Shown here: positions 17,768 to 38,100 of the stretch, one piece after another | Numbering within the stretch: position 1 is the stretch's first letter | Layout of the letters: each line of letters begins with the position of its first letter | Assembly (NCBI GenBank): GCA_026710875.1 | Contig: JAPOQE010000059.1 | Coordinates: 1-43,026, forward strand | Length of the DNA stretch: 43,026 nt | Source: Gammaproteobacteria bacterium | Lineage (GTDB): Bacteria; Pseudomonadota; Gammaproteobacteria; UBA4575 | Reading direction: 5' to 3' | Notes under the pieces: model-generated | What the model saw: only the letters and a program-made list of their open reading frames with translations | The model's database searches: none | Told to the model about the DNA's origin: nothing | Position numbers and translations under genes: made by a program

Positions 17768-20700
17768 CTATCGATCATCCAGGCCCATTAAGTCATCAAC
17801 TCCATAGAGATTCTTTTCACACATATAGTCAATCAAATCGAGAATCCTTTTGCGTAGGTCGGACCGATTTTCGGTATTCACATATTCTCGTTTCAAAATA
17901 TCCAGCAATTCATGAACAAACACGTATCCAGCTTCTTGCATGATAAGCTTTTCTCCAACTTCGATAACAATCTCTGTAACGTCACATGATGCCTCCTTTA
18001 GAATACGAATAAGGGCTCCAGGAGCAACAACCTCACATGCAGGCGAACGTATGAAAACCCGTGTCATACTCATGAAGTATGGGAATTCCTCGCTTGGTAT
18101 ATTCCAAAATACGCCCCCAGCCGCTTTCCTGACCTGAGGATCCCCATGGGGAAAAAGCTTTTCAAGCTCTGAAATTGCCATGTTGCGAAATTCGGTTTCC
18201 GGAGCGAATTCACAAAGAACTTCCGCCCACAGCTTCAAGTATGAAAGAGATTGTTCATGAATATCCGGGGACAACTTTACCGAATTACCCTGCCGCAATC
18301 TTTCTGCAAGCGTCCAGAAAACTCCGATGACACGCTGGTTCCCATCCGGTGAGTTGATCAGTCTCTCCATCAGCTCTGAAGCGAGTTCAGGCAAGTCACG
18401 CTCGATATAGGAAAAAAGACGAATACCAATATTTGTAGAGAGTGGTGACAGTGCAAAAATTTCATCCCGTTTGCTAGTAACAGGCTTGGTAAGAAGACGC
18501 AGGCATTTGTCGAATCGGTCTATATCGAGACTATAAAGCGATACAAGTGGGTAAACCATCATTGCACGTACGAAAGCAAAGGGCTCTATAACTGCCCGTA
18601 GTTCAAGAAGCTCCCAGATTCGAGCAATTCGCTGAGAGTCGCTCTCGACGAATTTCAATAGCACTTCCCACGCAAGCCCGCGAACTGAATTGATCCCGTT
18701 AGTGATAAGAGAATAATTTACATGATCGAGATCATGTATAGATGAAATTTCGTTCCCCTGTTGAGGAAGGTCAGGCTGTAGAACTTCACGCGCCTCACCA
18801 TGTTCGGCATACCAAAGTATCATTTCAAAGATATCATCATCCTGAATACAAGCTGGATGATGCATGACAAGGTTGGCAACTTGCCATCCAAATGGCCTGT
18901 TCTGATGAGCATGCGCTGCCTGAAGTGCTGCAATGGTCATTTCCTTATCTAGGTGATCTGCATCAGCCAATCCTTGAAGCACATGCTGGCCATAAATTGG
19001 ATTGACACTTTCAGGCAGCTTGAGAAAAAAACCTGTGAAACGATTCGGATCAGACCTTGCGCAACGCTCCAGTTCGCGTGCCAACTCCAGTGCCCCACCA
19101 ACTGGTTCTGTCCTATTACGCAGTCCTATATCCTCGGAATTATATCTTTCCATTGCGGAACGCCATTGTGTGTCGGTCATCCTGGAAGTTGCATCAGACG
19201 GAATCGGCGAATCAACAAGATGAGCCTCATGACTTCGTGGTACTGGAACATTTTCAGCACAAAACTTTCTTTCCAATTCCATCAATCTTTCTTTGCCCTG
19301 TGAGGAAAGCAATCCGTGTCCGATTGTCTTCAGAACGCACCACTCAACATGCCCGGAACGGGCCAAGTATGTTAAGGCATTGCGCCGTAACTCATCATTC
19401 TGATGCTCTTTTATTTCATGAGAAATTTCTTTAGCCAAATCGCACTCCGGGCAATGCTGAAACACCTTGCTCTCGATGTCCTGAACAGGCAGACACTGTG
19501 CCTCAACAACCGACCGTGCCGCATCTGCAAAGGCCTTCCACTCGGCTCCTTCCAGCCCCGCCAAAAAAAGATTTGGTTTATCAAGTAATGCAGTAAAACG
19601 ATGTCCTAAAGCACTCGGGTTTGTACTTATTGTTTCAAGATGCAAATGCAGCAAAACACCATGAGATGCCGGATCAAGTTGCTCAAGACAGGATGCCGCA
19701 TCCGACGGTGATGTTTGTGCAAGCCTTCGCAAAGCATCACGGTATAGAGAAAATAATGCATTGGGGCCCCTCTTGGACCTTGAATCATAAAGGACGTGGA
19801 TTGATGTAGAGTAGCCTGGAGAATCCTCACTCAGAGCTATTAGGACAGATTTATTCAGGACAGGAATCATCCCCTCCAGAAATACATCAGGTGCTTTTTC
19901 TGCCAATTTTGCCAGATCATGCACATCAATTTCTTTGATTCCATCGTGGTTGAACGGGTGCTTACCGGGATTGTGCTTGAACCACTGTTCGAATAGCCTT
20001 TGCAGGATTCCTGAAGATACACGGGGTTCAAACTCGCTAAGCTCCGTCGAAAATTCAACCAAACGACCCCACCTGTTTCCAATCGAGAAATCGACGGAAG
20101 TGGAACATGTAACATCAGACAACAAAGCGATCAGCGCCCTGTCTTCAGGAATCCTGCGCATGGAACAAAACCATTCGAGAACTTGTTCGCTGTGTGCAGG
20201 ATCGAGACCCCACCAATCTCTTATGAGTATCGCAATGGGTCCCGGTCGCATGTCGACGATGCGGCTTAGCCATCCAAGCAAGTAACGTTTTCTTGGCTTT
20301 GCAGCTGTCCTGAGCATGTTGGAAAGTTCACCATTGTCGTTCAAAAGATCAAACCAGAATTCTGATGCAAAAAGCGCCTTGCACATCAGGATTGGGAACT
20401 CCTCCTCACCGTCATCAAGAAGCTGAATGATTTCTAGCTCATCCGGCATTGGGCTATCCAGAGTTGCCAACCACTGTGCAACTGAATGCTTGATGTGTGA
20501 CCTTATCCTGGGATCGGTCAAAACGGTTTCTAATGCTTTCAGATAACGGGATTTTTCTGTGTCCCGCATCAAAGTCAAAATCTGGCGAACCTGGGTACGC
20601 CGGAAAAGGTGCTGTTCAGTTGAAGTGAGGAAAGCGATAATGTCGTCGCCAGACTGAGCAAAGTGCTGTGCAAAGACAAAATCGAAAAAGCTCTCGTGAA

Positions 20701-22309
20701 AGAATGACAACCGGTTTTGCTCGATGACAATCAATCCCTCCGAAGCCAGCCAGTCTTTCACACCGTTGAAATCACCTAAAACATAATAAGGAGCACTCAA
20801 CTCCTGATTATCACTCATCCATTTGGCCATAGAAGATAAAGAAGTACGAACACTCCATTTAACATCACGGTCCTGCGACAGATCACGAGCCTTTTTCTCG
20901 ACCAGTTTTTGGAACAGTTCAGTCCTGGTCGTGAAACTGAAATCTGTGTTGCCAATTTCAAGAAAGATGGAAAGATTTATGGGAAGAGTAAGGAGTTCAC
21001 GCTGGCTGTCTGTAAAGCTCTCTGTTGCAATTCCGCCATGCTTGAGTATTGGCACAACCTCCTGCTCCCATGACAAACTCGGCACCTGCACCCGTATCGC
21101 TTCATCCTGTCGTTCACAGTTTCGGTACCGATGATCATTCTCCAAGTCAAAAGTTCGACAAACCAGAATACATCTGACATCCGCATATAGTTGGGCTTCC
21201 CTTACCAGATCAAACAATATGTCCTTGATGGCACTGTTTCGGCCTGAGACTTCGCTGACTGCATCGATCTGATCGATGATCAGGGCGGAAGTCTTGTCCC
21301 CAGCTAAATTTGCGAGGGCGCTCACAGGACTCTCGTCTCTGCCCAAAACAACATCACCCACTTTTTTGCTTGATCTGTAGGAAAGGTAGCGATCAATTCT
21401 GAAAGCTAGACAGGGGACAGCCTGATTCATCAGATCGGTCATGATTCCTCGCACGACACCGGATTTTCCGCTACCTGCATCTCCTGTCAGGAAGATCAGT
21501 GGTGGCCCGTCTGCAGCCTGCAAGCACTCAACAACCTTGCCAACTTCCGACCTTGCAATCTGTTGACCTGCGATGCCGAATGGTGTGTAGCTATCCAGGT
21601 ATCTCTGGTTTGCAGCATCAATGTCCTCACGAAGTGTCGGATCAAGAGCTGCAGGGCGAAATGTGAAGGTACTTTTTTTACGAACCCATGTCCGTGCAGC
21701 TTCCGTTGTGACCAAAGCATTCAGATTATCGATCAGATAATCTGACAGGGGTGGGTAGAGATTCTCTTCGCCCTTCAGCACATGATTACCATGCATGGCA
21801 ATTACCTTGTCTATTGACTGCTCAGACTCTGTCTGAAACTCACAACGACATAGCCATTTAAACGTATACCTTTTATCAGCATCCCATTTTCTCGATAAAT
21901 CGTCGAATATCTCTTTATTTCTTTTGGAAACTGCATCCAGAAACTCATGTGCATCATTTGCTCTCCTGGCCTCTTCACTGAGTTCACGCAATTGCCTGGC
22001 TGGATCTTGAGAGACAAAAACACACCTGGCCGTGGAATCACTCGAAAGGCGCTTCTTGAAGGCATTCAGCACTCCTTCACTTTTTAGCGCGTTTGGGGTC
22101 CAGTTACTTCCCGGAGCATTGCGCTTGACCTGATGCCATTCCACATAATCTGATCTATGGAGTGCAAATTCAAAGCCAAAATAATCTTGTGATACGCCCT
22201 CATATCGTATTGAAATTGCTTCTCCAGCAATGACTTCGAGAAGCATACGCACCGTCCACTTACGCTCATATTCGTTTCCCAACTTATTTGAAATTCCGCC
22301 TGAAACCAT
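17768..22309 (-). CDS. STAND/NACHT-like NTPase with N-terminal DUF4297/Cap4-like nuclease domain
   Basis: 1513 residues. Residues ~10-130 resemble the Cap4/DUF4297 PD-(D/E)XK nuclease: GNEYERKWTVRMLLEVIAGE, then a Gln-Asp strand and EWHQVKRN, giving an E-x-D-E-x-QVK catalytic set. A STAND P-loop domain follows, with Walker A LTGDAGSGKSGVVRG near residue 275 and Walker B SALIIDQIDAVS near 345. Residues ~600-1513 are long helical repeats (HEAT/TPR-like), the usual ligand-sensing part. This is the Avs-like plan: sense a phage protein, oligomerise, cut DNA. The start is the ATG at 22,309. Transcription is divergent from the TIR gene. Assignment to a named Avs type would need a search. Confidence 0.8.
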   Translation of the reverse strand: MVSGGISNKLGNEYERKWTVRMLLEVIAGEAISIRYEGVSQDYFGFEFALHRSDYVEWHQVKRNAPGSNWTPNALKSEGVLNAFKKRLSSDSTARCVFVSQDPARQLRELSEEARRANDAHEFLDAVSKRNKEIFDDLSRKWDADKRYTFKWLCRCEFQTESEQSIDKVIAMHGNHVLKGEENLYPPLSDYLIDNLNALVTTEAARTWVRKKSTFTFRPAALDPTLREDIDAANQRYLDSYTPFGIAGQQIARSEVGKVVECLQAADGPPLIFLTGDAGSGKSGVVRGIMTDLMNQAVPCLAFRIDRYLSYRSSKKVGDVVLGRDESPVSALANLAGDKTSALIIDQIDAVSEVSGRNSAIKDILFDLVREAQLYADVRCILVCRTFDLENDHRYRNCERQDEAIRVQVPSLSWEQEVVPILKHGGIATESFTDSQRELLTLPINLSIFLEIGNTDFSFTTRTELFQKLVEKKARDLSQDRDVKWSVRTSLSSMAKWMSDNQELSAPYYVLGDFNGVKDWLASEGLIVIEQNRLSFFHESFFDFVFAQHFAQSGDDIIAFLTSTEQHLFRRTQVRQILTLMRDTEKSRYLKALETVLTDPRIRSHIKHSVAQWLATLDSPMPDELEIIQLLDDGEEEFPILMCKALFASEFWFDLLNDNGELSNMLRTAAKPRKRYLLGWLSRIVDMRPGPIAILIRDWWGLDPAHSEQVLEWFCSMRRIPEDRALIALLSDVTCSTSVDFSIGNRWGRLVEFSTELSEFEPRVSSGILQRLFEQWFKHNPGKHPFNHDGIKEIDVHDLAKLAEKAPDVFLEGMIPVLNKSVLIALSEDSPGYSTSIHVLYDSRSKRGPNALFSLYRDALRRLAQTSPSDAASCLEQLDPASHGVLLHLHLETISTNPSALGHRFTALLDKPNLFLAGLEGAEWKAFADAARSVVEAQCLPVQDIESKVFQHCPECDLAKEISHEIKEHQNDELRRNALTYLARSGHVEWCVLKTIGHGLLSSQGKERLMELERKFCAENVPVPRSHEAHLVDSPIPSDATSRMTDTQWRSAMERYNSEDIGLRNRTEPVGGALELARELERCARSDPNRFTGFFLKLPESVNPIYGQHVLQGLADADHLDKEMTIAALQAAHAHQNRPFGWQVANLVMHHPACIQDDDIFEMILWYAEHGEAREVLQPDLPQQGNEISSIHDLDHVNYSLITNGINSVRGLAWEVLLKFVESDSQRIARIWELLELRAVIEPFAFVRAMMVYPLVSLYSLDIDRFDKCLRLLTKPVTSKRDEIFALSPLSTNIGIRLFSYIERDLPELASELMERLINSPDGNQRVIGVFWTLAERLRQGNSVKLSPDIHEQSLSYLKLWAEVLCEFAPETEFRNMAISELEKLFPHGDPQVRKAAGGVFWNIPSEEFPYFMSMTRVFIRSPACEVVAPGALIRILKEASCDVTEIVIEVGEKLIMQEAGYVFVHELLDILKREYVNTENRSDLRKRILDLIDYMCEKNLYGVDDLMGLDDR

Positions 22310-22684: not shown

Positions 22685-22926
22685 TCAAAATTCAAGATCT
22701 GATGTAAAACATCTGCTCAACTGAGACTTCTCACCAGTTCGTTTTTCAGTCGAGGCAGATAGGGGCTAAGCTGCGGCAAAATGTTGCTCGAAGATCATCA
22801 GAAATTCTGCTGTATCCAAAACAGCCTCGACTCAAGATGGGCTTATGGTACAGTAGCGCGCCAGGCTCGGCTCTTCCTCAGATTGGTATACTTTGAGACA
22901 GGCATCCAACCTCCCTTCACTTGTGC

Positions 22927-24069
22927 ATGGCGAATTCAATGACCGAAACCTATGAAGAACTGCTGGCCATCTCCAGCCACATGGCTCAACTGGCTGAACA
23001 TGGGCATCAGCCAGAAATTCAAGAACCTCTGGAGCGCTTAAAGCAAGCTGCTGAAGAAATCGGCAAAGCTTGGAGCGGATCCTGGCTCGGTCATCATGCC
23101 AATGTCTACTACAATGACTTGCAGCCACCGCCTCCAGGGGCGCACTTCAGTCCAGAATGGGGACTCGATAGTGTATTCGGCCATGGCACGTCGGGTGACT
23201 GGCTAGAATTTGGTGCTAACCAGGTGAAAGATGCGATATATGACGAGGCAGGCAATCCTGATTTAGAGTCCTGCCAGAAGCTTCAAAAGGATTTGGCTAG
23301 TAGATTTGATACAGAAAAATCTAATACGGTTTCCATCCTTGAAATTGCAACCGAAGGCAATTCCGACGCTTTTTTACAGGGAATTAAAGTCGAACTGGAA
23401 AAACTGTCCATCCTCACTAAGAGCGAAGTCATTAATAAAATGAAGCCAAGCGGAAAAATCATGACTCGCGACTCGCTTGCTCTTACCCAAGGATTTTGGA
23501 CCCCGCCGCATTTTTCCGTACTTTCGGAAATATTTGTCATCCAACATACTAGTGAAACAGTCTCACATCTCGGAATACTAGCGAAAAAGGCGGGGTCACA
23601 TTTGTTTCGCCGGCAACAAAGAAGCTTGAAAGTAGATGTTGTTGGCACGAACGTATTCATTGGCCATGGCCGTTCACCAATTTGGCGTGAACTGAAGGAA
23701 TTCATTACAGAAAGACTAAAACTGCCTGTAGATGAGTTCAACCGAGTTCCTGTGGCCGGGGTAACCAACACTCAGCGTTTATCAGAGATGATGGATGCAG
23801 CAGCCTTTGCATTCCTCTTAATGACCGGGGAAGATGAGCAGCCCGATGGGCAAGTGCGTGCACGCATGAACGTGATCCATGAGGCAGGCTTGTTCCAAGG
23901 CCGACTGGGATTTACTCGCGCCATTGTCTTGCTTGAAGACGGTTGCGAGGAATTCAGCAATATCGCAGGGCTTGGGCATATACATTTTCCTAGAGGAAAT
24001 ATCAGACATGCTACTGAAGAAATACGTAAGGTGCTTGAACGTGAAGGCCTTCTGGGCAACTCTCAGTAG
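22927..24069 (+). CDS. TIR-like (CAP12/Pycsar type) effector with N-terminal domain
   Basis: About 380 residues. The C-terminal ~130 residues match the PF10137-type TIR-like domain: VFIGHGRSPIWRELKEFI, then LSEMMDAAAFAFLLMTGEDE, and NVIHEAGLFQGRLGF, where Glu319 is the likely catalytic residue for NAD cleavage. The N-terminal ~220 residues are helical with a short Trp/Gly segment (WGLDSVFGHGTSGDWLEFGA) and are unassigned; they probably sense the trigger. It stands alone, divergent from the STAND gene. The ATG at 22,927 is chosen; a TTG at 22,921 and an ATG at 22,939 are alternatives, none with a strong ribosome site. Confidence 0.75.
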   Translation: MANSMTETYEELLAISSHMAQLAEHGHQPEIQEPLERLKQAAEEIGKAWSGSWLGHHANVYYNDLQPPPPGAHFSPEWGLDSVFGHGTSGDWLEFGANQVKDAIYDEAGNPDLESCQKLQKDLASRFDTEKSNTVSILEIATEGNSDAFLQGIKVELEKLSILTKSEVINKMKPSGKIMTRDSLALTQGFWTPPHFSVLSEIFVIQHTSETVSHLGILAKKAGSHLFRRQQRSLKVDVVGTNVFIGHGRSPIWRELKEFITERLKLPVDEFNRVPVAGVTNTQRLSEMMDAAAFAFLLMTGEDEQPDGQVRARMNVIHEAGLFQGRLGFTRAIVLLEDGCEEFSNIAGLGHIHFPRGNIRHATEEIRKVLEREGLLGNSQ

Positions 24070-24144: not shown

Positions 24145-24927
24145 CTATGCTTCATATCCGGCAATCTCAATAGCTTCTTGTTGCAGGTCCAAAAGGATGT
24201 CCGTTGACATCAATGGAAAATCCTCGCATGGTTCTCCATAATGAGATGGTATCCAAACTGCTTCGCGCGATCTTCGCGGCCATCCTGCTATCCAAGATTC
24301 ATTGAATTCTTTACAGATTTTGAGGTGGAGCGTTGGTGAAAATTGTTTCCAGCGTTCGTATAGCAATGATGGATCAGCCGTATCTATAATTTCAATATGC
24401 TCTATCTTCCTATTACCGCCTTTCAGCCAAGAAGTTTTCAGAAGATTCACGGCATCTTTATCGGATTCCGGTGCGCCAAAACCAAAAATAGTAATAACGA
24501 AAGCGTTTTTAAATCGAAATTCAGCAGCCTGCCAACTATGACTTATGCAAGGTTTGCCTGAGTAGCCTTTCTGTTTTACCGGGTAGAGCAAGGGTACTTT
24601 CTCAAGAGATCCTGAACACTCTGGACACAAGTGGCCAATTCGGCGCCACAGTCCAGGATGCTCCGGGCACTGTCCAATTCTTACGTTGCCGTGGAGAAAG
24701 AAGATCTCCGGGAGAGGCACGTCGAACCGATTTCGCTCGTAGGCATCACACAAAAATGGGTCCCAATTAAATGTAAACACGGAATCAGTTTTTCTCAAGG
24801 AGAGTAACAGCCTGTCATACAATGTTGCTTGATAAGGAAGCTGGAGAGACGCAAAGTATTTCTCCACGACCTTTTCTAAGGCACGTCTGATCAATCCAGT
24901 TTCTGCAGGGTAGGCCCTTTTTGCCAG
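24145..24927 (-). pseudogene. SIR2-like protein lacking its N-terminus
   Basis: About 260 codons, open upstream to a TAG at about 24,928. Motifs visible are SVFTFNWDPFLCDAYERN and EIFFLHGNVRIGQC (the SIR2 'N-D' and 'LHG' elements), a CPEHPGLW...HLCPEC Cys/His cluster, then FVITIFGFGAPESDKDAV. The family normally begins with a glycine-rich NAD site that is absent here. The upstream boundary coincides with an IS3 orfB scrap on the opposite strand, indicating truncation by recombination or insertion. I infer an inactive NAD-consuming defence gene of a different SIR2 family from that at 1097-2701. Confidence 0.65.
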
Positions 24928-24931
24928 CTAT

Positions 24932-25036
24932 TATAACCATAAGCATTATCATGAATTGCTCAATAATCTGACGCCTGCTGATGAATTTTATGGACGGGAC
25001 AAAGATGTACTAGGTCAACGCGCTTTGATCAAATAA
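24932..25036 (+). mobile_element. IS3-like transposase C-terminal scrap
   Basis: The frame starting TATAACCATAAG gives YNHKHYHELLNNLTPADEFY and GRDKDVLGQRALIK then TAA. This is the 'YN--R-HE-LnnLTPAD-y-gR' tail of IS3-family integrases. It begins exactly where the SIR2-like frame on the other strand is broken. No terminal repeat or rest of the transposase is present. The 165 bp that follow, up to the methyltransferase, hold no gene. Confidence 0.65.
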
Positions 25037-25201
25037 AACATCTTGGCTATTAGGCGAAGAATGCATTACGATCAGCAACAAGTTAATCCATTAACCAACT
25101 TGATGAACTAATTTGTCTTTTAAATCAGGTAACCCTTGGTCCAAAAGGTTCTGATGACATTCAAAAATGAATTATTAAATTTTTCTCGAAAATAATAATT
25201 A

Positions 25202-26365
25202 ATGAAACCTATTCATCCTTTTCCAGCAAGAATGGCACCTGAATTGGTAAAGGAAAAATTCATCTCTATGCCTAAAGGATCAAAAGTGCTTGATCCTATG
25301 TGTGGATCCGGAACAAGCTTAAAATATGCAATAGATGCGGGATTAAATCCTGTCGGATGGGATATAGATCCACTTGCAGTCAAAATGGCACGAACGTGGT
25401 GCCGACGTTTCGATATAAAACGACTTAGACGGCTTTCAGAAGAATTGCGCCTTAAACTAAATCGACAGCGTGTATTGCCTCGTTGTCGATTTGATAACTG
25501 TAGCGAAACCCAAGAATTTGTGGATTATTGGTTCGCCAGAGAACAACAAGATGATCTCAATCGATTATCCATTGCAATAGAAGACATGTTTCCACCTGGA
25601 CGTACACGGGATTTTTTCCAAATTGCGATGAGTAGAATTATCATCACGAAATTCAAAGGGGCATCCCTAGCTTGGGATATTTCACACAGCAGACCACACA
25701 AAAAAAAAATAACTAATGACTACCAGACCATACTAGAATTTTTCAAGTCATTTGAAAAACTAGTACAGTTATATGAGGCCACACCCAGTAAATATGATGC
25801 TTCAATCGAACTTAGAGACTGCAGAAAGTCAGTGCCACATAAGGAATTCGATTTCATAATCACCAGTCCTCCATATCTAAACGCAATTGATTACATGAGA
25901 GGACATAAATTTTCGCTTATTTGGATGGGTTACACGATTCCACAACTCAAGAAAATTAAAAGTAATTCTGTAGGAGTAGAACGTGGTATTTCTCCACTAT
26001 ATGAGAACGAAAAATATCAGAAAATAATCAAAGATGTATGCACTGGTCGCCAATTAAATCCGAAAGTAAGAAAATACTTATTACGATATATATATGACTG
26101 TGAAGTTATCATTGAACGGTTGAAATCTACTCTACAACCAACAGGTGATCTCGTTATGGTGGTAGGAAATTCATCTCACTACGGTACAAAAATATCTAAT
26201 GATAAAATTTTTGTAAATATTGCCACTGATGCCGGATTCAATTTAATTGACAAAAAAAAGCGATCTATTGCTAGAAGGTCGAGATATTTACCGATGTTAA
26301 ATGGTCACCAATCTATCTCTAACAGAATCAAAACTGAATCTGTGATTCACTTTGCAATTGCTTGA
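25202..26365 (+). CDS. DNA methyltransferase, probably N4-cytosine, motif order I-TRD-IV
   Basis: 387 residues. Motif I VLDPMCGSGTSLKYA is near residues 29-43 with DIDPLAVKMA after it, and motif IV TSPPYLNAIDYM starts at residue 221. The region between is the probable target-recognition segment. I before IV with a central insertion is the alpha-like order; TSPPY favours N4-cytosine. The opening HPFPARMAPEL is typical of this group. It ends with a 19-bp overlap with the convergent 149-aa gene that belongs with the Z1 helicase, so the three probably form one modification-linked system. Local AT content is higher than in neighbouring regions, which may indicate separate acquisition. Confidence 0.8.
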   Translation: MKPIHPFPARMAPELVKEKFISMPKGSKVLDPMCGSGTSLKYAIDAGLNPVGWDIDPLAVKMARTWCRRFDIKRLRRLSEELRLKLNRQRVLPRCRFDNCSETQEFVDYWFAREQQDDLNRLSIAIEDMFPPGRTRDFFQIAMSRIIITKFKGASLAWDISHSRPHKKKITNDYQTILEFFKSFEKLVQLYEATPSKYDASIELRDCRKSVPHKEFDFIITSPPYLNAIDYMRGHKFSLIWMGYTIPQLKKIKSNSVGVERGISPLYENEKYQKIIKDVCTGRQLNPKVRKYLLRYIYDCEVIIERLKSTLQPTGDLVMVVGNSSHYGTKISNDKIFVNIATDAGFNLIDKKKRSIARRSRYLPMLNGHQSISNRIKTESVIHFAIA

Positions 26366-26796
26366 AGCATATCATTGCTAAAACCTCGAGACTTACTTCT
26401 CTCCAATTTCTCTCGACCTCCAACAATGTACATTTGTCGTTTTCTTCTTTTAACATGCAGATTTAGTGAAGTATCACCTTTTTTTCGAGAAGCTATTTGA
26501 TTAAACTCATTCAAACTTAATGTCAAAAATCCATCATAACCACATACAAGACAAATATAAGTTTTTTCTGTATCTTCTGAAAGCAATTGAATTTCAGTGA
26601 GGTTATCTTTAGTAAAACTGAAAACCCATGGCGAAAGACGTTTTGATGAATGCTTGATAAATAATCCAATTACTTCGTTAACGATAAAGCAATTAACTAT
26701 CCCGTGAATGTCATGAGCTTTGATGTGAATGCCATCAGGTAATTCGACTGCCAACTCTCTAACAACCAATCCGTGGTATTGTTCATAATCAGCCAT
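26347..26796 (-). CDS. Small conserved partner of Z1 protein, unknown function
   Basis: 149 residues. Recognisable parts: WVFSFTKDNLTEIQLL, then YICLVCGYDGFLTLSLNEF and a basic C-terminal stretch LHVKRRKRQMYIVGG. I recall similar small proteins next to Z1-type helicases, but the family is unnamed to me. The start overlaps the Z1 stop by 8 bp, so the two are co-translated. The tail-to-tail overlap with the methyltransferase gene is 19 bp. A nuclease or DNA-binding role is possible; no PD-(D/E)XK pattern is clear. Inference only. Confidence 0.6.
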   Translation of the reverse strand: MADYEQYHGLVVRELAVELPDGIHIKAHDIHGIVNCFIVNEVIGLFIKHSSKRLSPWVFSFTKDNLTEIQLLSEDTEKTYICLVCGYDGFLTLSLNEFNQIASRKKGDTSLNLHVKRRKRQMYIVGGREKLERSKSRGFSNDMLQAIAK

Positions 26797-28744
26797 AATC
26801 AGGCGAATTCCATAAAAAACTTAAGCTGCTTATATCGTCACAATCATATTTATAAAACAACCTCCCTTTTTTGCGGTTGAAGTGAAATATCTTAAAGTGA
26901 TGTGTTGCAGATCGATCTTTGTCTCTATCAAATTGACCCCAAAACCCTCTAGACCTATATATATTTTCAATATCGTCTCCGCGTCCAGGATCAGGTTTGA
27001 AAACACTCACATCTGCAGGTTCATAAAGAGCTACCTTACTGCTACCACCTCCGAAATTTTCGACAAATTGCATAAGATGTGAAGGAAATGCACTAGCTGG
27101 AAGTAATTCATTAAGCCGCGACAATTTCGATTCATGTGAGTCACCATTATCACCAAATATTTCTCGTTCTATATTTTCATTTATATCAAACAGGTTAAAA
27201 GATAATTCTCCTTTTTTCGTTTGAAAAACATTTGTTTTATCAATACTTGAGTTAGCAACGGCTGCCACTCTCTTATCTGTAATCCATATGGGTGGATTCC
27301 CGCTCCTTGCACCATTCAATGAAAGTTTATGGTAAACGAAACAGCGGTGCCAATCGCTATACAGCTTCTTTGGAATCGTTAATTCAAAGTGTTCTAGATA
27401 ATCGCCTCGTACTCCAAACATGCGGGCTCTTTGAATGTATGTGTCTTGTTGGATTTTATGCTTTACATCTCTTGTGAAGTACATTGAAAGTAAGTTATTC
27501 AAGGTCACACCGCGGGAAACTATGTTGCCCCCTATAACCACCGTAAATAATGCTTTAGGGTTCGTGGCATCTTGCCCACTTACGGAAACATCCTTCTTTG
27601 AGTTTAGAACTATTACTTTATGCCGCGAGATATTCTTTAAAATAAATTCCGTAATAAGATTAGGGTCCTCGTTCGGAAACCTTTGACGAGCCTTTTCCCA
27701 TACTTCCTGCACATAGATTTTCCATTTTGGAGAGTTCTTATCTATCAATATCCCAATTGCATTTTGGATGATCTTCATATCCTTTTGATGGTCATTCACT
27801 TTCCCACTTGTATGAATAAGCATTGAATAATTCGTCATTTCAAAATCATCTAATTGTAAATTAATGTAAGAAGCTGCAACGAGAAAACTGAAGAATGCCT
27901 CCCTGGTATACTTGGGTGCATCACAACTATCTGATAGCAGTTCCAGGATATATAGAACATCCTTATGAATAGGAAAGAAATGGTCTTGTCCTGTATAAAG
28001 TTCATGTGCCGGGAACTCCACCCATTTTGCAGTGACATTACCAAAAGTATTATTCAAGTCTAAGCGCGCGGGAGTTGCGGTCACTCCTATATATCTCCCT
28101 TGAATTCCCAATAGCTTTTCAATCAGCTCATTTATTTTTGTTTTATCCTTTTTATTTATTTTTGAGTTCGGCGTTGCATAATCAGCTTCATCATCAATCA
28201 CAACTATATTTCCAAGCGTATCTAATTTGTCTATTAGTTTTTCTAAATCCCTCGCGTTTTTTTTACAAAATACTACATGACGCACTCCTTTAACTCGGTG
28301 AGCAGGATCAATGATTTCAGAAAAATTTTTCGGAGATGGGGCAAGTCCACTAGTCTGAAAGCGTCCTAAATTTTGAGATAAAAGATCGACACTATCATTA
28401 AGGAGCAATACGATTAATTTATAACCTGAATCAAGAAGTTTGGCAGTAAGACAAATCATCATCTCAGTTTTGCCACATTGCGGTTCTCCATAAATGATAA
28501 ATGGAGGAGGAGTTGGCTCATTCAAATTTTCAATTGCTTGGGTAACAGTCTTTTCTATTTGGTCTATCTTTACTTTTTTTCGACTAAGACGTTTAAGTTG
28601 CCCTTCATACTGACTTGAATAATCAGTTAAATTACTGAATTGACTTATATTGAAATTTTGTTCCATATACATTATTTCTGCATTGGGTGTTACAGAGCGC
28701 TCAGCATACGTATTATAAAGATTTGATTTGTGACTACTAGACAC
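26789..28744 (-). CDS. Z1-domain protein, SF2-helicase-like ATPase
   Basis: 651 residues. Walker A FIIYGEPQCGKTE is near residue 86, the DEAD-like box VVIDDEADYA near 184, motif III GVTATPARLD near 221, then VIGGNIVSRGVTLNNL near 400 and QRARMFGVRGDY near 446, the hallmark Z1 region. Z1 proteins are SF2-type ATPases found with DNA methyltransferases and nucleases in defence loci. It is cotranscribed with the 149-aa gene, and the methyltransferase faces it. The GTG start at 28,744 has no clear ribosome site; MEQNF at 28,663 is the alternative. The upstream side is cut close by an IS3 remnant, so any earlier operon gene is lost. Confidence 0.8.
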   Translation of the reverse strand: MSSSHKSNLYNTYAERSVTPNAEIMYMEQNFNISQFSNLTDYSSQYEGQLKRLSRKKVKIDQIEKTVTQAIENLNEPTPPPFIIYGEPQCGKTEMMICLTAKLLDSGYKLIVLLLNDSVDLLSQNLGRFQTSGLAPSPKNFSEIIDPAHRVKGVRHVVFCKKNARDLEKLIDKLDTLGNIVVIDDEADYATPNSKINKKDKTKINELIEKLLGIQGRYIGVTATPARLDLNNTFGNVTAKWVEFPAHELYTGQDHFFPIHKDVLYILELLSDSCDAPKYTREAFFSFLVAASYINLQLDDFEMTNYSMLIHTSGKVNDHQKDMKIIQNAIGILIDKNSPKWKIYVQEVWEKARQRFPNEDPNLITEFILKNISRHKVIVLNSKKDVSVSGQDATNPKALFTVVIGGNIVSRGVTLNNLLSMYFTRDVKHKIQQDTYIQRARMFGVRGDYLEHFELTIPKKLYSDWHRCFVYHKLSLNGARSGNPPIWITDKRVAAVANSSIDKTNVFQTKKGELSFNLFDINENIEREIFGDNGDSHESKLSRLNELLPASAFPSHLMQFVENFGGGSSKVALYEPADVSVFKPDPGRGDDIENIYRSRGFWGQFDRDKDRSATHHFKIFHFNRKKGRLFYKYDCDDISSLSFLWNSPDYG

Positions 28745-28784
28745 TCATTAAGCTTTCAAAAAATTGATGCTAATCACAAAGTGG

Positions 28785-29127
28785 TCCTTCCCCAAAAACT
28801 GGTCCGGACTTTATGCGAAATTCTGACTTAAATGGCTTTGTTTTTCCTCCTGTTTCCGGTGCGCTTGTGCAAACTCCACCGGGGTCTTGTACTCCAGCTG
28901 GCTGTGTGGCCGTTCGTGATTATACATCTCCCTCCATCGGTCTATCTTGACCCGTACATCCTCCAAGGATAAAAACCAATGCTGGTTCAAACATTCCAGC
29001 CTCACCCGCGCATTCAATGACTCGATGAACGCATTGTCCGTGGGCTTTCCAGGACTGGAGAACTCCATGGTCACGCTATTGGCGTAGGCCCACAGATCGA
29101 CCAGCCGGCTGACGAACTCGCTGCCCG
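28785..29127 (-). mobile_element. IS3-family transposase C-terminus with terminal repeat
   Basis: Continuing in frame from an HTH gene, the sequence reads GSEFVSRLVDLWAYANSV, GKPTDNAFIESLNARVRLE (the catalytic Glu) and HERPHSQLEYKTPVEFA, the last ~100 residues of an IS3 orfB. After the stop at 28,811 comes CCAAAAACTGGTCC (28,792-28,805), shared with the left end of the IS3 at 41,968. The junction with the host gene is at about 29,128. Confidence 0.75.
28792..28805. repeat. IS3 terminal inverted-repeat motif
   Basis: CCAAAAACTGGTCC, matched (one extra A) at 41,968-41,982. It marks the outer end of the IS3 fragment here and the left end of the near-complete element there. Confidence 0.6.
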
Positions 29128-29446
29128 CCAACTCATCCAGCGCATATCTGAGAAATTCCAACTGCAGCTTGGATAGTGGAACCTGGCTTTTGGACTTCAT
29201 CTGTTTCCGCAGGCGCTCTTCAATTTCACTGCGGTATGCCGGTAGCGGCGGTTTCTTTGGTGTCTTACCCGATGCTACCCTGGCCCAATATCCTCTGGGT
29301 GGCTTCGGCACCTGAAGGCGGCGGCATAGTTTCCCTAGAGCAACATCAGAGATCCCAAGCTCTCGTGCAACTTGCCGCGCCGGCTGTTCCCACACCAAAG
29401 TAAATAGTTCTTCTCTACCAAGGTCCTTCGATCGCGCAGTATCAAT
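29128..29446 (-). pseudogene. Helix-turn-helix 'GYW' protein, truncated by IS3
   Basis: The frame gives LGREELFTLVWEQPARQVAR, ELGISDVALGKLCRRLQVPK and PPRGYWARVASGKTPKK, a familiar short HTH-containing hypothetical family with a conserved GYWAR. It begins at, or just inside, the end of the helicase gene (helicase TGA at 29,442-29,444), with no clear ATG. At residue ~90 it fuses in frame to the IS3 integrase tail, so the C-terminus is lost. Its position as third gene of the sacsin/helicase unit suggests it was a regulator or component of that system. Confidence 0.55.
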
Positions 29447-32141
29447 GGGTTGACTCGACTGATGACCAGATCAACGCGATCGCTTTATGTTCAGGAATCC
29501 TAAATGGAAAGTTGAGCCCTTCAATCTCAGCCGCAATTACCTCACTTGCTTTTTGAACAAACTCCGTCATCACTTTCGTATGGGTTTTGGGTACACTTTG
29601 GGCTTTTTCTTTCGTGCGAATATTGTTCAGACGTTCAAGAACCTCCCAATCTCGAAGTGTTTTCCAGTCGCTATCCTCTTTTGGCTCCATCCCAACAATC
29701 GCTAGACGCATATGACCGGATTGATCTGTTACGCGATCAAATACCTGAAAGATGACCAACGGTGACTTAAGCTCATTGCTAAACGTTAGTGATACCGGGT
29801 ACTCCGCAGCCACTCGTAATGCTTTATCGAAAACTTTGTGGCCTACACCAAGCACCTTCTCTGCAGTTTTACCCCCCAGGATACTGCGGTCAAAAACCAT
29901 TTCATCATACCTTCTGCGTATGCCTGGCTCATCCAACCAAGATTCTGGGATTTTAAAGGTTAGGCTATCGCCGGTACGAGCTGGCCTACGTCTCTCTAAC
30001 GCCAACATATTTTCGAAAAATGTACGCAAATCCGGCAGGTCTACGTTCGGCACATCCTTAAGTCCCGACAGATCAAACCGCGTTGCATTTCCTACTAATG
30101 CTTTAACGGTGTCGATAGCTGATTCTCCGCCAAGTGTCTCGGCCTTCTTGTCGAACCAGTCATCCAATCGCCCCTTCTTCACAAACTGTCCTTCACTGAA
30201 CAGCTCTGAAAACATACTCGATGACGACATCCCGAGCACCAATTGCAGAAGATCCTCTGGCTCATCCATCGCCCCCGACAGGGCTGACATGATTCTTGCG
30301 AGCTTTGCGTTTAGCAAATCCCAGATTCTTGCTTCCACCGTTGCAGGATTTCGTAGCGTAATTACTTCTACAGGTTTCTTTTGCCCGTATCGATTGAGTC
30401 GACCCACGCGTTGATGCAGACGCATCGGATTCCAGGGTAGATCCACATGAATCAAGGAGTAACACTGTTCTTGTAGATCGATGCCTTCACCACCAGCTTC
30501 AGTAGAAATCAAAAATCGCACTTTCCCCGCGTTGAAGAGATCTGCCGCTTCTCCCCTGTCGATTGATCTATTTACTGTAGAGCCATCAGAAAGTATCAAA
30601 CCCTCCAGTCTCTCGTCTCCATTGATAAATGTGACGCAGTCATCGCCATACTTCGTCATTAACGCCGTCATCAATAGAGACTGAGTAGCTTTGTATTCTG
30701 TGAAAAATAAAACCTGACGTCCTTTGTAACGACCTTCCAGAAGATCTAGTATCTTTTCTATCTTGGTTTCTGATTCCACCGCATCTGCCGCTTCTACTAA
30801 TGCCTCCAAATGCGGAATCTCTTCTTCCATAAGTGTCAGCGTTGCTTCTGCCAACATCATATCTACGTCGTCTTCGAGATCATCCAATATGGATGACTCA
30901 TCAGCTGCAGTTGCAAGTGCCGTCTGCTCTTTATTGGTCAGGCGGATTTTTTCCTTCAGTTCCTCCCTTGTGGCGCGAAGCCTCCCTACTCTCCCTTTAA
31001 GAGCCTTTCGAATCGCAGAAACAGAGCTTGACGCAAGTTTCTGCATCGCAATCAACACGAGAATGACCTGGCGCCCTTCCTTCGCTGACAGAGATGTCGC
31101 ATAGGCTTTACCACTTGCTATAAAGTCGGTTAGCAGCTTGTAGAATGCCTCTTCTTCCTGTTTATATGCATAGGTTTCCGGATAAACAGTAACTGGCTTG
31201 AATAATTTATTTCCATGCATATCGGTAACCAGGCTCTTGTTATTTCTTATGAGAACCTCCCGCAGCAACTCTATTTGTTCTTCATCCGCTTTCTTTGGAT
31301 CGAAAAGGTCTGGCCTTAAGAGTTTCATGAGCGACCAGAACCCAAAAGATTTTCCACGGTGAGGCGTGCCGGTGAAGAAGACACACGACTCCACTTTGTG
31401 TTGCTCTAATAATCGCTCGACGAAACGGTACCCGAGTGTAGACCCTCTCGATTCGTCAGCATTTAGATGGTGAGCCTCGTCTACAATCAACAGATCCCAT
31501 GGATCTGCTTCCAACATCCTTTCATGTCTTCCATGTCGATCAGCCCGTAATGTAGGTAATGAAGCCACCACTTGGTGATGTGTGTTCCAAAAGTAGCCTT
31601 TCTTACTATCCGCCTCCGTCGAATATCTTGCTAACCGAATATCGAACATTTCTCTAAGTCTGAATTGCCACTGCTCTACCAAGGAAGCCGGGCAGAGGAC
31701 CAACAAGCGCCTTACCAGCCCTTTTGAGATCAAAGGCCAAAGAATTAATCCGGCCTCGATGGTCTTGCCTAAACCCACATCATCGGCAACGAGGTAACGA
31801 ATAGGCCATCGACGCGATACGCGGTGACATACCCACAACTGATGCGGCAGAAGAGAGATGCGAGAGCGTGAAAACACTCCCCATGAATCGTTTACAGACT
31901 GAATGGCTGCTGCTTGGCTCTTCGCAATTACTTCAACCGGGTCGTGCCACTCATTCAATTCAAGTGCTGCTTTAAGGCTAACTTGTTTCTTTAGTGCTTG
32001 GATGTCGCACTCTTCCAACCCATGTTCGAACCGTACAATGGCGGTCTCACCCTTTGGATACTCCACTGATCCTGGGCCATAACGCTGATGAACAACCTCG
32101 TCGCCTGGTCGAAGCTGGTGACTACTTCGCTTCTCTTCCAC
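29442..32141 (-). CDS. SNF2/RapA-like DEAH helicase-ATPase
   Basis: 899 residues. A short N-terminal strand region (HQRYGPGSVEYPKGETAIVR) precedes the helicase core. Walker A is VADDVGLGKTIEAGLIL near residue 122, DEAH box LLIVDEAHHLNAD near 222, FFTGTPHRG near 255, and the C-terminal half has LFFTEYKATQSLL, STEAGGEGIDLQEQ and LHQRVGRLNRYGQ. This is the SNF2/RapA plan also used by DISARM DrmD. The C-terminal ~250 residues are unassigned. The GTG start at 32,141 directly follows the TAG of the 2544-aa gene, with AGGAGG about 9 nt upstream. I infer DNA translocation or remodelling in concert with the giant ATPase. Confidence 0.85.
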   Translation of the reverse strand: MEEKRSSHQLRPGDEVVHQRYGPGSVEYPKGETAIVRFEHGLEECDIQALKKQVSLKAALELNEWHDPVEVIAKSQAAAIQSVNDSWGVFSRSRISLLPHQLWVCHRVSRRWPIRYLVADDVGLGKTIEAGLILWPLISKGLVRRLLVLCPASLVEQWQFRLREMFDIRLARYSTEADSKKGYFWNTHHQVVASLPTLRADRHGRHERMLEADPWDLLIVDEAHHLNADESRGSTLGYRFVERLLEQHKVESCVFFTGTPHRGKSFGFWSLMKLLRPDLFDPKKADEEQIELLREVLIRNNKSLVTDMHGNKLFKPVTVYPETYAYKQEEEAFYKLLTDFIASGKAYATSLSAKEGRQVILVLIAMQKLASSSVSAIRKALKGRVGRLRATREELKEKIRLTNKEQTALATAADESSILDDLEDDVDMMLAEATLTLMEEEIPHLEALVEAADAVESETKIEKILDLLEGRYKGRQVLFFTEYKATQSLLMTALMTKYGDDCVTFINGDERLEGLILSDGSTVNRSIDRGEAADLFNAGKVRFLISTEAGGEGIDLQEQCYSLIHVDLPWNPMRLHQRVGRLNRYGQKKPVEVITLRNPATVEARIWDLLNAKLARIMSALSGAMDEPEDLLQLVLGMSSSSMFSELFSEGQFVKKGRLDDWFDKKAETLGGESAIDTVKALVGNATRFDLSGLKDVPNVDLPDLRTFFENMLALERRRPARTGDSLTFKIPESWLDEPGIRRRYDEMVFDRSILGGKTAEKVLGVGHKVFDKALRVAAEYPVSLTFSNELKSPLVIFQVFDRVTDQSGHMRLAIVGMEPKEDSDWKTLRDWEVLERLNNIRTKEKAQSVPKTHTKVMTEFVQKASEVIAAEIEGLNFPFRIPEHKAIALIWSSVESTH

Positions 32142-35100
32142 CTAGTAAACCTCCTCGTCTGTTAGCGCTCTACCCAGTAATTCTTGCTGAAGCTCCCACT
32201 CTTCCGAGACCCTTTTCAGAGGAATATCGAAATCGCCGCAGAAACTGGCTTTTTCCTCCCCTACATTCTCCATCAAGAAACTCTGCATCAAAGGAGATGC
32301 TTTAAGTCGTGGTACAGCTTCAATGTCTTCGCATCCCAATTCATAGAAGAGTCGTCGAACTCGCTGATAGGGGACATAAGCATGTTGACGAAGGTGCGAA
32401 CTGTCGATAATCCGGTTTCGGATCAGCTCCCTGATCACAAAGTTTGCACCCATCCCGAGAGTTCGTCCTAGTGGAGGGGCCGCTATACCTCCCCCTTGTT
32501 GATCTGCATCCGCAAGGGGAGAAAACACCAAGTCCAGATCAAAATGGCTTCGGTACCTTTCCAGCCCAAGCAACAACTCCACAAAATCATCTAGGTGGCG
32601 CGATAATTTATAGATGATGGGAAATCGCATCATCCATTGTTCGTAGTCCTGTTGATCTACTTGCTGATCAATGTATTGATCTAGAACCCCCATCCAGTCG
32701 TTGAAACGTTGAGCTGGAGCGGGGTCCGTGAACACGTCCCACCAACCACGGTTTTGGCAATTTTCGATAAATCTGCGGTGCTGTTCTGGCTGAGTCCGCC
32801 CCATAGTATGGAATCCACCGAGGAGCAACAGCACCAGCCAAGATGACCGATCTACAGTGCCGTCATCATCGTCCGCAAGTCGAAGCGACAGGCCCTCTGG
32901 ATAAATCTGTTTACGATAGTTATCAAGCACTTCGGTTCTTGCGCTTTCCCACCATTCGTATATTCGGTTAAGCGCACTTTCAGCATCAATCCGCTCCAAC
33001 AGTGGGGCACTATCCCCATAGTTATGCCACGCGTTTCTGCTTTCACTCGGCGTCTTTAATACCTGGTATATGAGCTTAGACCGACTATCAGAGTCCCAGT
33101 CCTCCAAATATTCAGAATCCTCACCAACCGACACCAACCAGGTACCACCTATCCCCTTCTCATGCAAAGCACTGGCGACTTGTGAGGCAAGCTCTCCTTT
33201 TATCAGGTATTTCAATGCTGCACGACGTCTGTTGTCATCCTCTGCCTGAATAATCCAGTCCTTGAGCTTCTCTGCTGGAGCCTCAAGCTTGTCGCGACAA
33301 AACAGAAAGAACTCGACAGCGCTCCCATCGTAATCTTTTGCCAAGCGATGATTGTCTGGCGAAAACGCCCATCGAAGCGCCTCATCTTCGCTGTGGTTTT
33401 CGGTAAGAAGGTTTTTGCACTTCTCAATCGTTTCACCAGCAGAATGAAATTGGAGTTCTCTAGCCTTTTCCGCTGCGAGTTTCATATCCTTAATGTGCTC
33501 GAGAGGGACCTCCTTTTCGGGTTGATGCCAACTATCCAATGTTTGTGAATTTAGCGCCTTCCCAAGAATATTTGCATCTGACGGATTTATAGCGTTTTTG
33601 CTATCTAACTGCACAATCAGGCTCGTAAGGTTTGCTATTCTCCATTGCGAGGTATTTGATCCAAACTCAGGAACAAGCATTCTCAGCCAGGTCGCCAGCT
33701 CGGAAGAAACAGCGGTTCTCGCATCCAACATTCCCTGAAAACAGGACGTTTCTGATATAACCTGCAGCACGTGATCATCCGCTAGTGCATCTTTTAACAC
33801 TGTTTTCACGTCTGATATCTTAATTAAACGCTTCAACTCTCCTGGAAGACCGTTTGGAACGACTTCCTCGTCTTCCGCCAATTTTTGCAGCCCCTCTTTA
33901 ATAAGAGCAGTAGCGATAACCCGGGTGCTGGAATCACGCGGCATCTGCGGTAAACGCGCCATCAACACTTTCCAAAGCGTGCCCCACAGATGATATGGCT
34001 CTAGTCCGGGTACCAATTGCATTGCAGCAGAGACGTCCATCCAGCGAGAAGTTACTGACTTATGTAGGTGATCAAGCTCTAACGCTAATTGGCTTCCCAA
34101 TCGACGAGCTAGGCATTCATTTTCAGTGACGCTTGCTGATAGACGTGAACGTCCAGCATCGACTTCAAACATTGCGTTAATTGCAAAGCCTATTCGCTCC
34201 TGCTCTCTAATTGGCGCTGTGACCCACAAATTTGGGATCTCCTTTGGCAGTTCCTCGAACCCTTGTGTTCCTATTGATAGGAGGAGCGCTCCATCAGGAA
34301 GCACAACCCGCAATACAAGGAGATCGTCGCCTGCCTGTCGTGCGTGCCCTACAAAGATATTCTCGCACCCCGGAAGTAATGTGCCCTCCCAGCTAGCTGA
34401 CAATTTGCCGTTGGCACCGCGATCGATATCAATGGCGCGAATATTTCGTGCGAAAGCGACCATGACACCAGCCACTTGCGAGAACTGATTAAGAACATCA
34501 CTTCCTCTGACCTCGACGAGGGGCAACGAAATACCAGTACCTGGCCACTGGCTATCAGGCTGAAATACTGACATTCTCTTGCGTAACTCTCGGCTTTCCG
34601 TATTCTGCGTTGCCATGGGCAGCAACCCACCAATTATTTCTGCTTGAAGTCGGCCACTCAAAACGGTTGGGCGATCGGATATCAGCCAAACGCTTTTAAA
34701 GCCCAATCCGAACTTACCGGTTACATCCTCTCCCTTATCGGAAGCAGACAGGATCAACATGTTTTCCAAGTCCCGATCGTATCCACGATCGCGTCCCGGG
34801 AAGCCCTTGCTGCCAAATTGGTTAATAGCGCGTCCCCAGTGCATGAAGATGAGTCGTTCCTCTGTTGCATCTACGACAAATCGACAAATAGAGGCGGGAA
34901 GAGGATCTACATCCAGATCTCCTGGTTTTGCCGGATAAGCATCGATTAATTCCAGATCGTGCAACGCATCATCTGCATTTTGAAAAATCTCAAAAGGAAC
35001 ACTTTCTATCTGGTATTGAAAATCTCGGATTTTGCGTCTGACCGACTCCAATATCGTTTTCTGTGCACCCTCATCTGATTCAATGATTCTTTGCAAATCA

Positions 35101-38100
35101 ATGAGCGATTCTTCTTTTCTCTTGCTGTATTTTTGTTCCCCAGCTGACCCAGCAAACTCTTTTTCCTTTCTTTCATCGTCCCTATATCTATTTAAGCTGG
35201 AGCTTAGGATGGGGTATTTATGCACCCCCAACTGCTTCAAATAAAAAGGAATATTTTGCAAGATCAGTGAACGGGCAAGCTCGATGCCTACCTGGTCTGA
35301 TTTATCCAGTTCATTCCACAGGTCATCGAGGCGTGGTTGTAATTGATTAAAGACCTCACGCAGAACGTAAGCCGTTGAATTCTTAAGATACGTGGATAAC
35401 TGCTTGTCGGAACATTGTTCTACTGAGATCTTTCGAATAACCAGATCGATACGATATCCATCTTGTTTCTCCATGCGGTGATAACTCGGCCTACCAACCA
35501 GCAATGTCGAGAACTCCTCCTCAAGCCCTACCGAGATTAACTCACCGAGGATCGAATAGACCTGCATGCTATTCTCATCATGAACTCTTACCGTCATACG
35601 AAAGTATTCCAGTGCTTCATCGAACGAAAACCCAAACAACCATGTTCTTGCGCCACCCGAATCGGTACCTTGTGGAATTTTCCAAGGCACCTGATCGACA
35701 AGCCATTCCCTTGAATGTTGGTTAAGCAATTCTCGACAAAGAGATTTGATTGACTTATCTGCACCAAACAAAAGTACAAATAAACCCGTTATCGATGGTG
35801 CGACCCGGCCGGACCATAAGGTAAAGTAATTACGAAGTACACCAGCAGCGGCTTGCGTTTCACTCGCAGGCTCCATCTCCGGTGATTGCTCTGCGTCTTT
35901 TACCGCTTGACGATCTTGAAAAATCAAATTTGCAAGAATCTGGGCTTGTTTTGGGTCCAGGACATGAACTTTCGCTACTCCGATAACATCACTTACCAAT
36001 TCTGCGCTGGACTGCCAACGATTTGCCTGACTGAGCAATTTCAAGCGGCAAACCGCCTCCTTAGCATCTGGAGAGCTTGCAAATACTTTTAAATAGCGAT
36101 TGAAAACGTGAACAGCTTGCCCCTGATCACCACCACGTCCGGAAATCCAATTCAACAGATTTACTATGGCCTCCAGACTCATCGGCGCACTCATCGATGA
36201 CACTAGAGGTAAGAGATCGATATCGTCTCCATGTGCGGCCAAGATCGCTGAAAGGAGCCGCCAACCGGGATGCTCATACGAAGAAAGAAGACTTGCCGCT
36301 TCTCTAAGCGCTTCTGAATTCTCGAAAGTGATACTACCTATCTGGTAGGTATCTAGATCCGCAAGTACTAGTGCAAGCCGATCAATACCTTCTTGCCCGC
36401 GTGAATGATAGCGCTCTTTGATTTTGGGGTAAAAAGGATGCGCCAAAAACTCTTCATCCAGTCTTGATGGCGTAGTGAAGGTATCGGGCACCTGGGCGAG
36501 AATTCGGTCTAACTCAACTTCGGCAGCTTCCAGATCAATAATGTCATCTGGTTTTTCTAGTTCGCCCCTGGTCGTAGGCACCCAGGCTACTTCCTTTATC
36601 CGCCTGCCTAATTCTGGTGATACCTTGTTAGGTCCAGTATTCAGAGATTGCAACGCATCTGCAATCACACGCCATACTTCCTTAACAGTTGGACTTCTCA
36701 GTGCCAGCTCAATAATAGCGCTTTCGTCCAACGGCCTTAGAAGGGCTTTCTGTCGACGCCGCACCTCACTGTCTGAGCTGCAGGGAATCAGATATGCGCC
36801 TCGAAGTAGTTCCTCATCAACGTCTATTACACCACTATCTAGATACACATTTTCGTCGTTCCCCCGAACCGGTTTGCCCTGAGGCGTCCAATGGAAGGGC
36901 AGCGAACACCAGAGTCGATCATCTTTGACTGTTCGGAGAATCTGATCGCATTCTTCTTGACTGAAACCGGAAGAATCGACCATTGTCACGTCTCGTTGCG
37001 CTATTTCTTCGATTACCGAATTCGCGCGTATCTCCCTAATGCCAATCTGGCGCGCGACGTCTCGAGATAATCTATCTGCAATATCAGCCGCTACCAGGTT
37101 CCATGGCTCATCCTCATTTTCGACTAGTTGTGCCCACAGCTTTCGCCAAACCAGATGCTGTTCTTCACCTAGAATCCAGAGGGCATCGTCGTCATCAAAA
37201 TGACCGTTATCGGCATGAAGAAGGAAGCGAAGACCCCGAATTTCAATTTCCCCACTTGGTGTGCTCACGCTGCCAGCCAACTTCGCCCTTGCCTTCAGCT
37301 CGCCAAGAGTTCTGACTTTTTGCCCGAGAGTGCGAAGGACTGCCCCCCCATTGCAAGGTGACATTGCCCGTTCCTGGTTCAACGCAAGTTTTGCCGTTTC
37401 GGCGTTTATCAGGAGAACACGGACGTTCGGGAGGATTTTCTGAAGATCAGGAGCCAGTCCCAATCTTTCTTGGGGGCTAATGCTCTGACTAAAACCAAAT
37501 AAAACGCCGTCTTCCCTGGCGCTCTCTATTTCTCTCAGGGAAACCGCAACCATCTCACCTGATTTACAATCGTACGCCCCCAAGATATCTAGGTCGGCAC
37601 AACGCTGCAAAAGCTGCTTTCGGTGCTCAGCAGCAACGCCTTTGATAATCTGTTCAGAAAGTGACAACGCCGATTTCCGAATTTCTTGACTCGGTTGCTT
37701 CCCGCCTTTTATCACATCTTGCACGTTTCTCAGCAGTTGTGATGCGTCATTTATGGATAGCGATGCTGTGCCACTCCATGCTGTCGGATAAAACCGTGCA
37801 GGCACCAATACAAGGTCGGTATCTATGGAAAACAACTGCTTGAGTAAAGTAGAGGGGAAATTATTGTCTATCCGGAAGCAACGTTTCTCATCCATATGAC
37901 TAACGATTTCTCGAACTCGTTGCTGATTTTTACCCAGCCCATCCTCTCCGGTACGAATCATCCCGGTTTTGAACACCTCTCCTAGTTTCTTATTAACCGT
38001 GCCAATTCGGATATAGGGCCCCGCTGACTGTTCCAGGAAGCTCGCGAAGTAATCCAATAGAGTAGAATCCGAGAACAGCGATCTGTCGTCCACTGAACCG

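Follow-up and report, generated by a model that had tools for sequence, protein, structure and literature searches.

A widespread three-gene unit around a Z1 ATPase

The gammaproteobacterial contig JAPOQE010000059.1 (43,026 nucleotides, analysed over its whole length and referred to here as the window) carries a three-gene unit encoding a Z1 superfamily 2 (SF2) helicase-like ATPase, a small protein of 149 amino acids (aa) and a DNA methyltransferase (MTase), which together probably act as an ATP-dependent, methylation-guarded restriction module. The module is widespread yet apparently undescribed, and a literature search for this gene combination returned only the CglI and NgoAVII systems and general surveys. 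The restriction reading draws on the conservation of the unit in many phyla, the coupling of the Z1 and small genes and the correlated divergence of their products, the N-protein type of the Z1 ATPase and the SF2 and PD-(D/E)XK folds of the two proteins, as well as on the nucleases found after Z1 at other loci and the defence-type genes around the unit. The conserved unit, the motor fold, the nuclease fold of the small protein and the loss of its canonical acids are computational findings.

The MTase gene (25202-26365, + strand; 387 aa, ATG start) matched PF01555 (7.9e-8) and PADLOC MTase_II (4.6e-27) and faces the small gene (26347-26796, - strand; ATG start) with a tail overlap of 19 bp (26347-26365). 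The small gene in turn overlaps the Z1 gene (26789-28744, - strand; 651 aa, PF10593 E = 4.5e-25) by 8 bp (26789-26796). Z1 was called from a GTG start at 28744, however, because homologues align only from about residue 25-31 on, the real start is probably the ATG at 28672 or 28666. The MTase contains motif I (DPMCGSG), a long spacer and then TSPPY, and is of the alpha order because DPMCGSG precedes TSPPY; it is a predicted m4C or m6A DNA methylase. An earlier note on this DNA had described the Z1-small coupling, the facing MTase and its alpha-order TSPPY type, and the open reading frame coordinates and motif order agree with it exactly. The G+C content of the unit was 0.364 compared to 0.457 upstream and 0.502 downstream, and the low-G+C stretch (24900-28810) ends at an IS3-type transposase fragment (28811-29398), which together suggest an acquired cassette. 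In the source genome (a 1.79-Mb draft of 171 contigs), Z1 and the small gene each occur once.

The Z1 protein has a Walker A motif (GEPQCGKT), a DDEAD motif and the sequence DTYIQRARMFG, all invariant or nearly so in its subfamily, and its structural model (predicted local distance difference test, pLDDT, 79.8) matched SF2 helicases in Foldseek. It scored 155 bits with the PADLOC Helicase_II model (N.NgoAVII type) compared to 32 bits with MzaC; N.NgoAVII itself scores 1065 bits with Helicase_II. With the NCBIfam MzaC model, whose cut-off is 1500, it scored 42 bits. The conserved residues of Z1 include no recognised nuclease motif.

Distribution and co-occurrence of the three genes

Partner genes were surveyed by aligning the Z1 subfamily, seeded with viral-contig relatives, and then iterating hidden Markov models; this survey was conditioned on Z1, and a reverse test started from the profile of the small family. 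Direct pattern scans with the single 149-aa protein over genome and viral collections gave no matches, and relatives emerged only via the Z1-subfamily alignment. The subfamily comprised 80 genome loci, spread over many bacterial phyla and Nanoarchaeota metagenome-assembled genomes (MAGs). The small gene was present in 63 of the 80, in nearly every case as the gene immediately following Z1 on its 3' side; an MTase of the window type was present in 68. Because 54 loci hold both partners, the association of the three genes is far beyond chance (one co-occurrence tally took in the window and five non-genome loci), and these counts uphold the view of a real, mobile unit. A 148-aa neighbour of Z1 in Rhizobium (L002), considered as a member of the small family, was not related.

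Among same-strand Z1-small pairs (n = 63) the genes overlapped by 4 bp in 32, by 8 bp in six and by 11 bp in seven, a pattern suggestive of translational coupling. With respect to Z1-small, an MTase on the same strand was found downstream in 22 loci and upstream, adjoining Z1, in 18; it was convergent in eight (window included) and elsewhere in eight. The phage-like contig L014 has a single co-directional Z1-small-MTase operon with two 4-bp overlaps. The convergent layout, by which the earlier note described the unit, is incidental, being one among several arrangements.

For the reverse test the small profile was run over 369 class-level and 398 phylum-level genomes, and three matches were found beyond the window. 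Two adjoin Z1: an intact Z1-small pair stands beside an MTase broken into two frames in L134 (9149-10055, - strand), and in L135 the small gene and Z1 are accompanied by a C5 MTase, a UvrD helicase and Vsr. The third (L136, 5693-8468) is a distant member with Thr at the position of K48; a D12 MTase and a 247-aa gene lie nearby, and Z1 was not found in that genome. On cyanobacterial plasmids the small gene sits immediately 5' of a more remotely related Z1 (8-bp overlap in Nostoc), and a further Z1-small pair (L013, 5998-8311) shares its contig with phage structural-type genes, the 22.9-kb record containing no N6/N4 MTase. Set against the conditions under which the earlier note would be refuted, the outcome is mixed. 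The 149-aa family was linked to Z1 in all recovered cases bar L136. The proposed co-occurrence with the MTase was seen for the same enzyme type in the 68 loci above and broke down at some Z1-small pairs, where the MTase is of a different type or none was visible.

Across 55 loci the protein distances of Z1 and the small protein were closely correlated (r = 0.82), those of Z1 and the MTase far less so (r = 0.25), and L055 and L087 carry other TSPPY-type MTases. Together with the C5 enzyme of L135, this suggests that Z1 and the small protein make up the core and that the modification enzyme is exchangeable. Loci lacking the small gene, where enough flank was available, form one fully supported clade of the Z1 tree, to which a single sequence from a Nanoarchaeota MAG has to be added (the contigs of Nanoarchaeota stop a short way from the unit). 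Presence of the small gene required two changes on the tree compared to 11.4 in shuffles, and the gene would most simply have been lost once within small-bearing lineages. No significant six-frame match pointed to a small-gene fragment hidden in the small-less loci, and protein lengths in the clade showed no sign of the small domain fused to Z1 or the MTase. In one small-less locus (L069), a single case, an HNH protein directly follows Z1, and in L004 the gene after Z1, overlapping it by 8 bp, is a DUF4420 PD-(D/E)XK gene.

A nuclease fold with a degenerate active site

When the small family was searched by sequence against Pfam, PADLOC, PDB and NCBIfam, no match was consistent across members. 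All 64 members matched phrog_28860, a family of unknown function that is here connected to Z1 and an MTase. An AlphaFold2 (AF2) model made with 64 homologues reached a pLDDT of 94.6 and a predicted TM-score (pTM) of 0.90, and its best Foldseek matches were archaeal Hjc (E = 5.8e-4), a SPARDA nuclease, EcoRV and RecU. VIA Z scores were 10.1 for I-Ssp6803I, 9.7 for Hjc, 8.7 for RecU and 8.1 for NhoI. The top structural matches were proteins of the restriction endonuclease (RE) fold, including tRNA-splicing-endonuclease subunits such as TSEN15, which is non-catalytic. The TM-scores were modest (0.4–0.5) and hence identify the superfamily clearly but no nearest family. By this model the small protein has a PD-(D/E)XK (RE) fold over nearly its whole length, as do Hjc, I-Ssp6803I and RecU, however, its canonical D and E are replaced by aromatic residues and no similarity to these proteins was detected at the sequence level.

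The active site was mapped onto the 64-member alignment by secondary-structure order against Pfu Hjc (PDB). F37 stands at the expected D and is Tyr/Phe in 64 of 64 members. F46 stands at the expected E and is Tyr/Phe in 78%, otherwise mostly His/Gln; acids are not among the residues common there. K48, conserved in all 64, stands where the lysine of ExK is expected, and S50 falls at the Ser/Thr that follows in the EVKxT of Hjc. Near-invariant residues are D/E3, Y7, G9, S50, R53, P56, W57, F59, C85, D88, G89, R117, Y123 and G127. Profile comparison (hhalign) of the small family with Hjc detected no sequence similarity. Because the D and E of D...ExK are lost, the modelled protein has a nuclease fold but, by this mapping, is not a canonical nuclease; the loss of both acids argues against canonical cutting, and simple decay is hard to square with an invariant lysine. 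The 149-aa protein had been put forward as the nuclease of the unit, and structure prediction supplied the fold by AF2, Foldseek and VIA alike, however, the canonical acids are gone and a GHKL-nuclease of the window is a second candidate.

Comparison with known Z1 systems

In CglI and NgoAVII (R-N-M), the N-proteins are double-stranded-DNA-dependent ATPases needed for cleavage (PMC4267653). The unit resembles these systems in coupling an SF2-Z1 ATPase to a few genes with a DNA MTase and in the grouping of its Z1 with N.NgoAVII-type proteins (PADLOC Helicase_II). However, the window Z1 is only about 25% identical, the partner is a 149-aa RE-fold protein rather than a PLD-B3 protein of about 345 aa and the MTase is an alpha-order TSPPY enzyme rather than C5. 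No PLD/B3 gene is present in the three-gene unit, and hhalign found no relation between the small protein and R.NgoAVII.

The unit also resembles the operons that Iyer, Abhiman and Aravind (2008) set out as their third type, or MZA (MutL-Z1-DUF4420-AIPR), in the DThhQxuRhFG motif (here DTYIQRARMFG), in an RE-fold partner directly 3' of Z1 and perhaps in an optional GHKL ATPase with a C-terminal RE nuclease; a paraMORC3-like gene of this kind lies 13.5 kb off in the window and adjoins or is near the unit in 12 related loci. The differences are that the RE-fold partner is half-sized here and lacks E-D-ExK, the MTase is of a class other than C5, neither AIPR nor Vsr was seen beside the unit, and the low PADLOC and NCBIfam scores place the window Z1 outside the MzaC type. 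No sequence relation between the small family and DUF4420 was found by profile. The unit is best read as a new form among the Z1-ATPase restriction-modification systems to which CglI/NgoAVII and Iyer/MZA belong. It would work like CglI/NgoAVII but is placed outside them because two of their defining features fail (PLD-B3 R-protein, C5 MTase).

A GHKL ATPase as a possible fourth component

The paraMORC3-like gene of the window (9182-11653, + strand) encodes an 823-aa GHKL ATPase with a C-terminal PD-(D/E)XK motif that is canonical and intact (conserved E...PDG...(D/E)AKS, E...PDG...DAKS in the window) and fits the description of paraMORC3 by Iyer et al. (2008; PMC2292703). Homologues occur in 12 Z1 loci, compared to at most two for any other window gene outside the unit; the GHKL protein of L063 is 44% identical to that of the window, and both L063 and L126 have the gene order MTase-GHKL-Z1-small. 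A full-length copy was found in 11 of 44 system genomes searched, and genomes without the gene beside the unit had no full-length copy elsewhere either. In 185 class genomes the search returned nothing but the source genome of the window and a single partial match. An obligate role was rejected, the gene being absent from most system genomes. Going by gene neighbourhoods, the GHKL protein is a possible optional fourth component, and because the gene lies 13.5 kb from the unit in the window we treat its involvement as hypothetical.

Proposed function and alternative explanations

In the restriction module that we propose, the MTase would modify target sites in host DNA, probably marking self, and the Z1 SF2 ATPase would act as a DNA motor with the 149-aa protein as its obligate, DNA-contacting partner subunit. 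Complex formation, methylation sensing and restriction are inferred: the Z1-small complex would load on unmodified incoming DNA and translocate, so blocking or destroying it. The small protein would fill the slot held in other Z1 systems by R.CglI (PLD-B3), DUF4420, Vsr or HNH nucleases, and different partners may thus plug into the Z1 motor, namely PLD-B3 in CglI and NgoAVII (PMC4267653), DUF4420 in L004, possibly HNH in L069 and the small RE-fold protein here. We favour a small protein that is not a canonical metal-dependent nuclease. Such a protein could set the motor in place on DNA while a different protein (here plausibly the GHKL-nuclease) does the cutting, or while the DNA is blocked and left uncut; alternatively, it could itself cut by a re-tooled site around K48. 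More specifically, and tentatively, the Z1 motor may work with a re-tooled PD-(D/E)XK subunit (Tyr/Tyr/Lys-type site), serving for acid-free cleavage or as a non-cutting clamp, and with exchangeable MTases. Although Z1 has long been tied to restriction, only the PLD-type CglI and NgoAVII have been dissected biochemically among the literature found. This subfamily offers an exact gene definition, a partner of known fold and the anomaly of an invariant lysine without acids, so that experiments on just two small proteins and their point mutants could show what a Z1 motor needs to restrict. With an exchangeable MTase, it is also a question by what means the motor distinguishes self and non-self.

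Several observations weigh against the restriction module. Z1-small pairs without an MTase in the stretch seen include two phage-like contigs and two cyanobacterial plasmids, and the weak covariation of the MTase with Z1-small (r = 0.25) is ill-suited to a small protein reading the MTase's sequence. A Z1 clade of 11 loci persists without the small gene, keeping Z1 and the MTase, and no common replacement nuclease or other gene was found in it, GHKL occurring in a minority only. Finally, the catalytic acids of D...(D/E)xK are replaced in the 64-member alignment, leaving the Lys alone invariant. An epigenetic or selfish cassette without restriction, in which the MTase is regulatory and Z1-small serves DNA maintenance or mobile-element functions, would suit the Z1-small pairs carried by phage-like contigs and by plasmids, some of which have an MTase and some not, however, the restriction-type Z1 homology, the defence-type neighbours and the patchy distribution across phyla make it improbable.

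Within a restriction system, the 149-aa protein may itself be the endonuclease, its re-tooled PD-(D/E)XK site switched on by Z1 as R.CglI is by its N-protein. We regard this as a serious possibility, short of probable: the protein has the nuclease fold, K48 and S50 match places in the Hjc EVKxT, and K48, S50, R53, W57, D88, R117 and Y123 can be counted as invariant and D/E3 as nearly so. The large majority of loci have no other recognised nuclease beside the unit, and HNH, DUF4420 and PLD nucleases occupy the neighbouring gene position elsewhere. The aromatic residues at D (64 of 64) and E (78%, no acid among the common residues), the Thr in place of Lys in L136, the Z1 clade that does without the protein and the lack of sequence support in the Hjc profile comparison speak against it. 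Alternatively, restriction may be nuclease-free, a motor with an RE-fold clamp blocking replication or injection of unmodified phage DNA in the manner of BREX, which restricts without cutting. No intact nuclease motif was recognised in Z1, the small protein or the MTase, and GHKL is missing at most loci without a full-length copy elsewhere in those genomes. This explanation is nevertheless somewhat doubtful, as the fold and gene position of the small protein are those of nuclease subunits and the better-known Z1 systems, CglI and NgoAVII, cut DNA (PMC4267653, PMC5737866). Rather unlikely is a larger paraMORC system in which the GHKL-PD-(D/E)XK protein is the cutter and Z1-small-MTase the recognition and motor part. 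Its E-D-(D/E)xK motif is intact, homologues occur at Z1 loci and adjoin the unit in L063 and L126, and GHKL families with C-terminal RE domains are described in Z1 systems (PMC2292703), however, full-length copies are confined to a quarter of the system genomes searched (11 of 44), and in the window the gene is 13.5 kb away on the other strand.

Other defence-type genes in the window

Other defence-type genes surround the three-gene unit. A helix-turn-helix and BsaWI-like restriction endonuclease (weak RE_BsaWI match) is convergent with a beta-order N4/N6 MTase (14438-16460); homologues of both (63% and 66% identical) lie directly beside Z1-small in L087. A DrmD-type SNF2 helicase (PADLOC DrmD, 1031 bits) is followed in an adjoining frame by a 2544-aa sacsin-type ATPase (29442-39776, - strand). 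Also present are a protein with a C-terminal CAP12/PCTIR TIR domain (22921-24069, + strand), a 1513-aa NACHT/AAA-like NTPase that weak matches suggest is a defence-type STAND protein (17768-22309, - strand) and, in tandem, a SIR2_2 protein, a Schlafen/AlbA_2 and RecG-C-type protein and an AAA/SMC-like ATPase (1097-6838, - strand).

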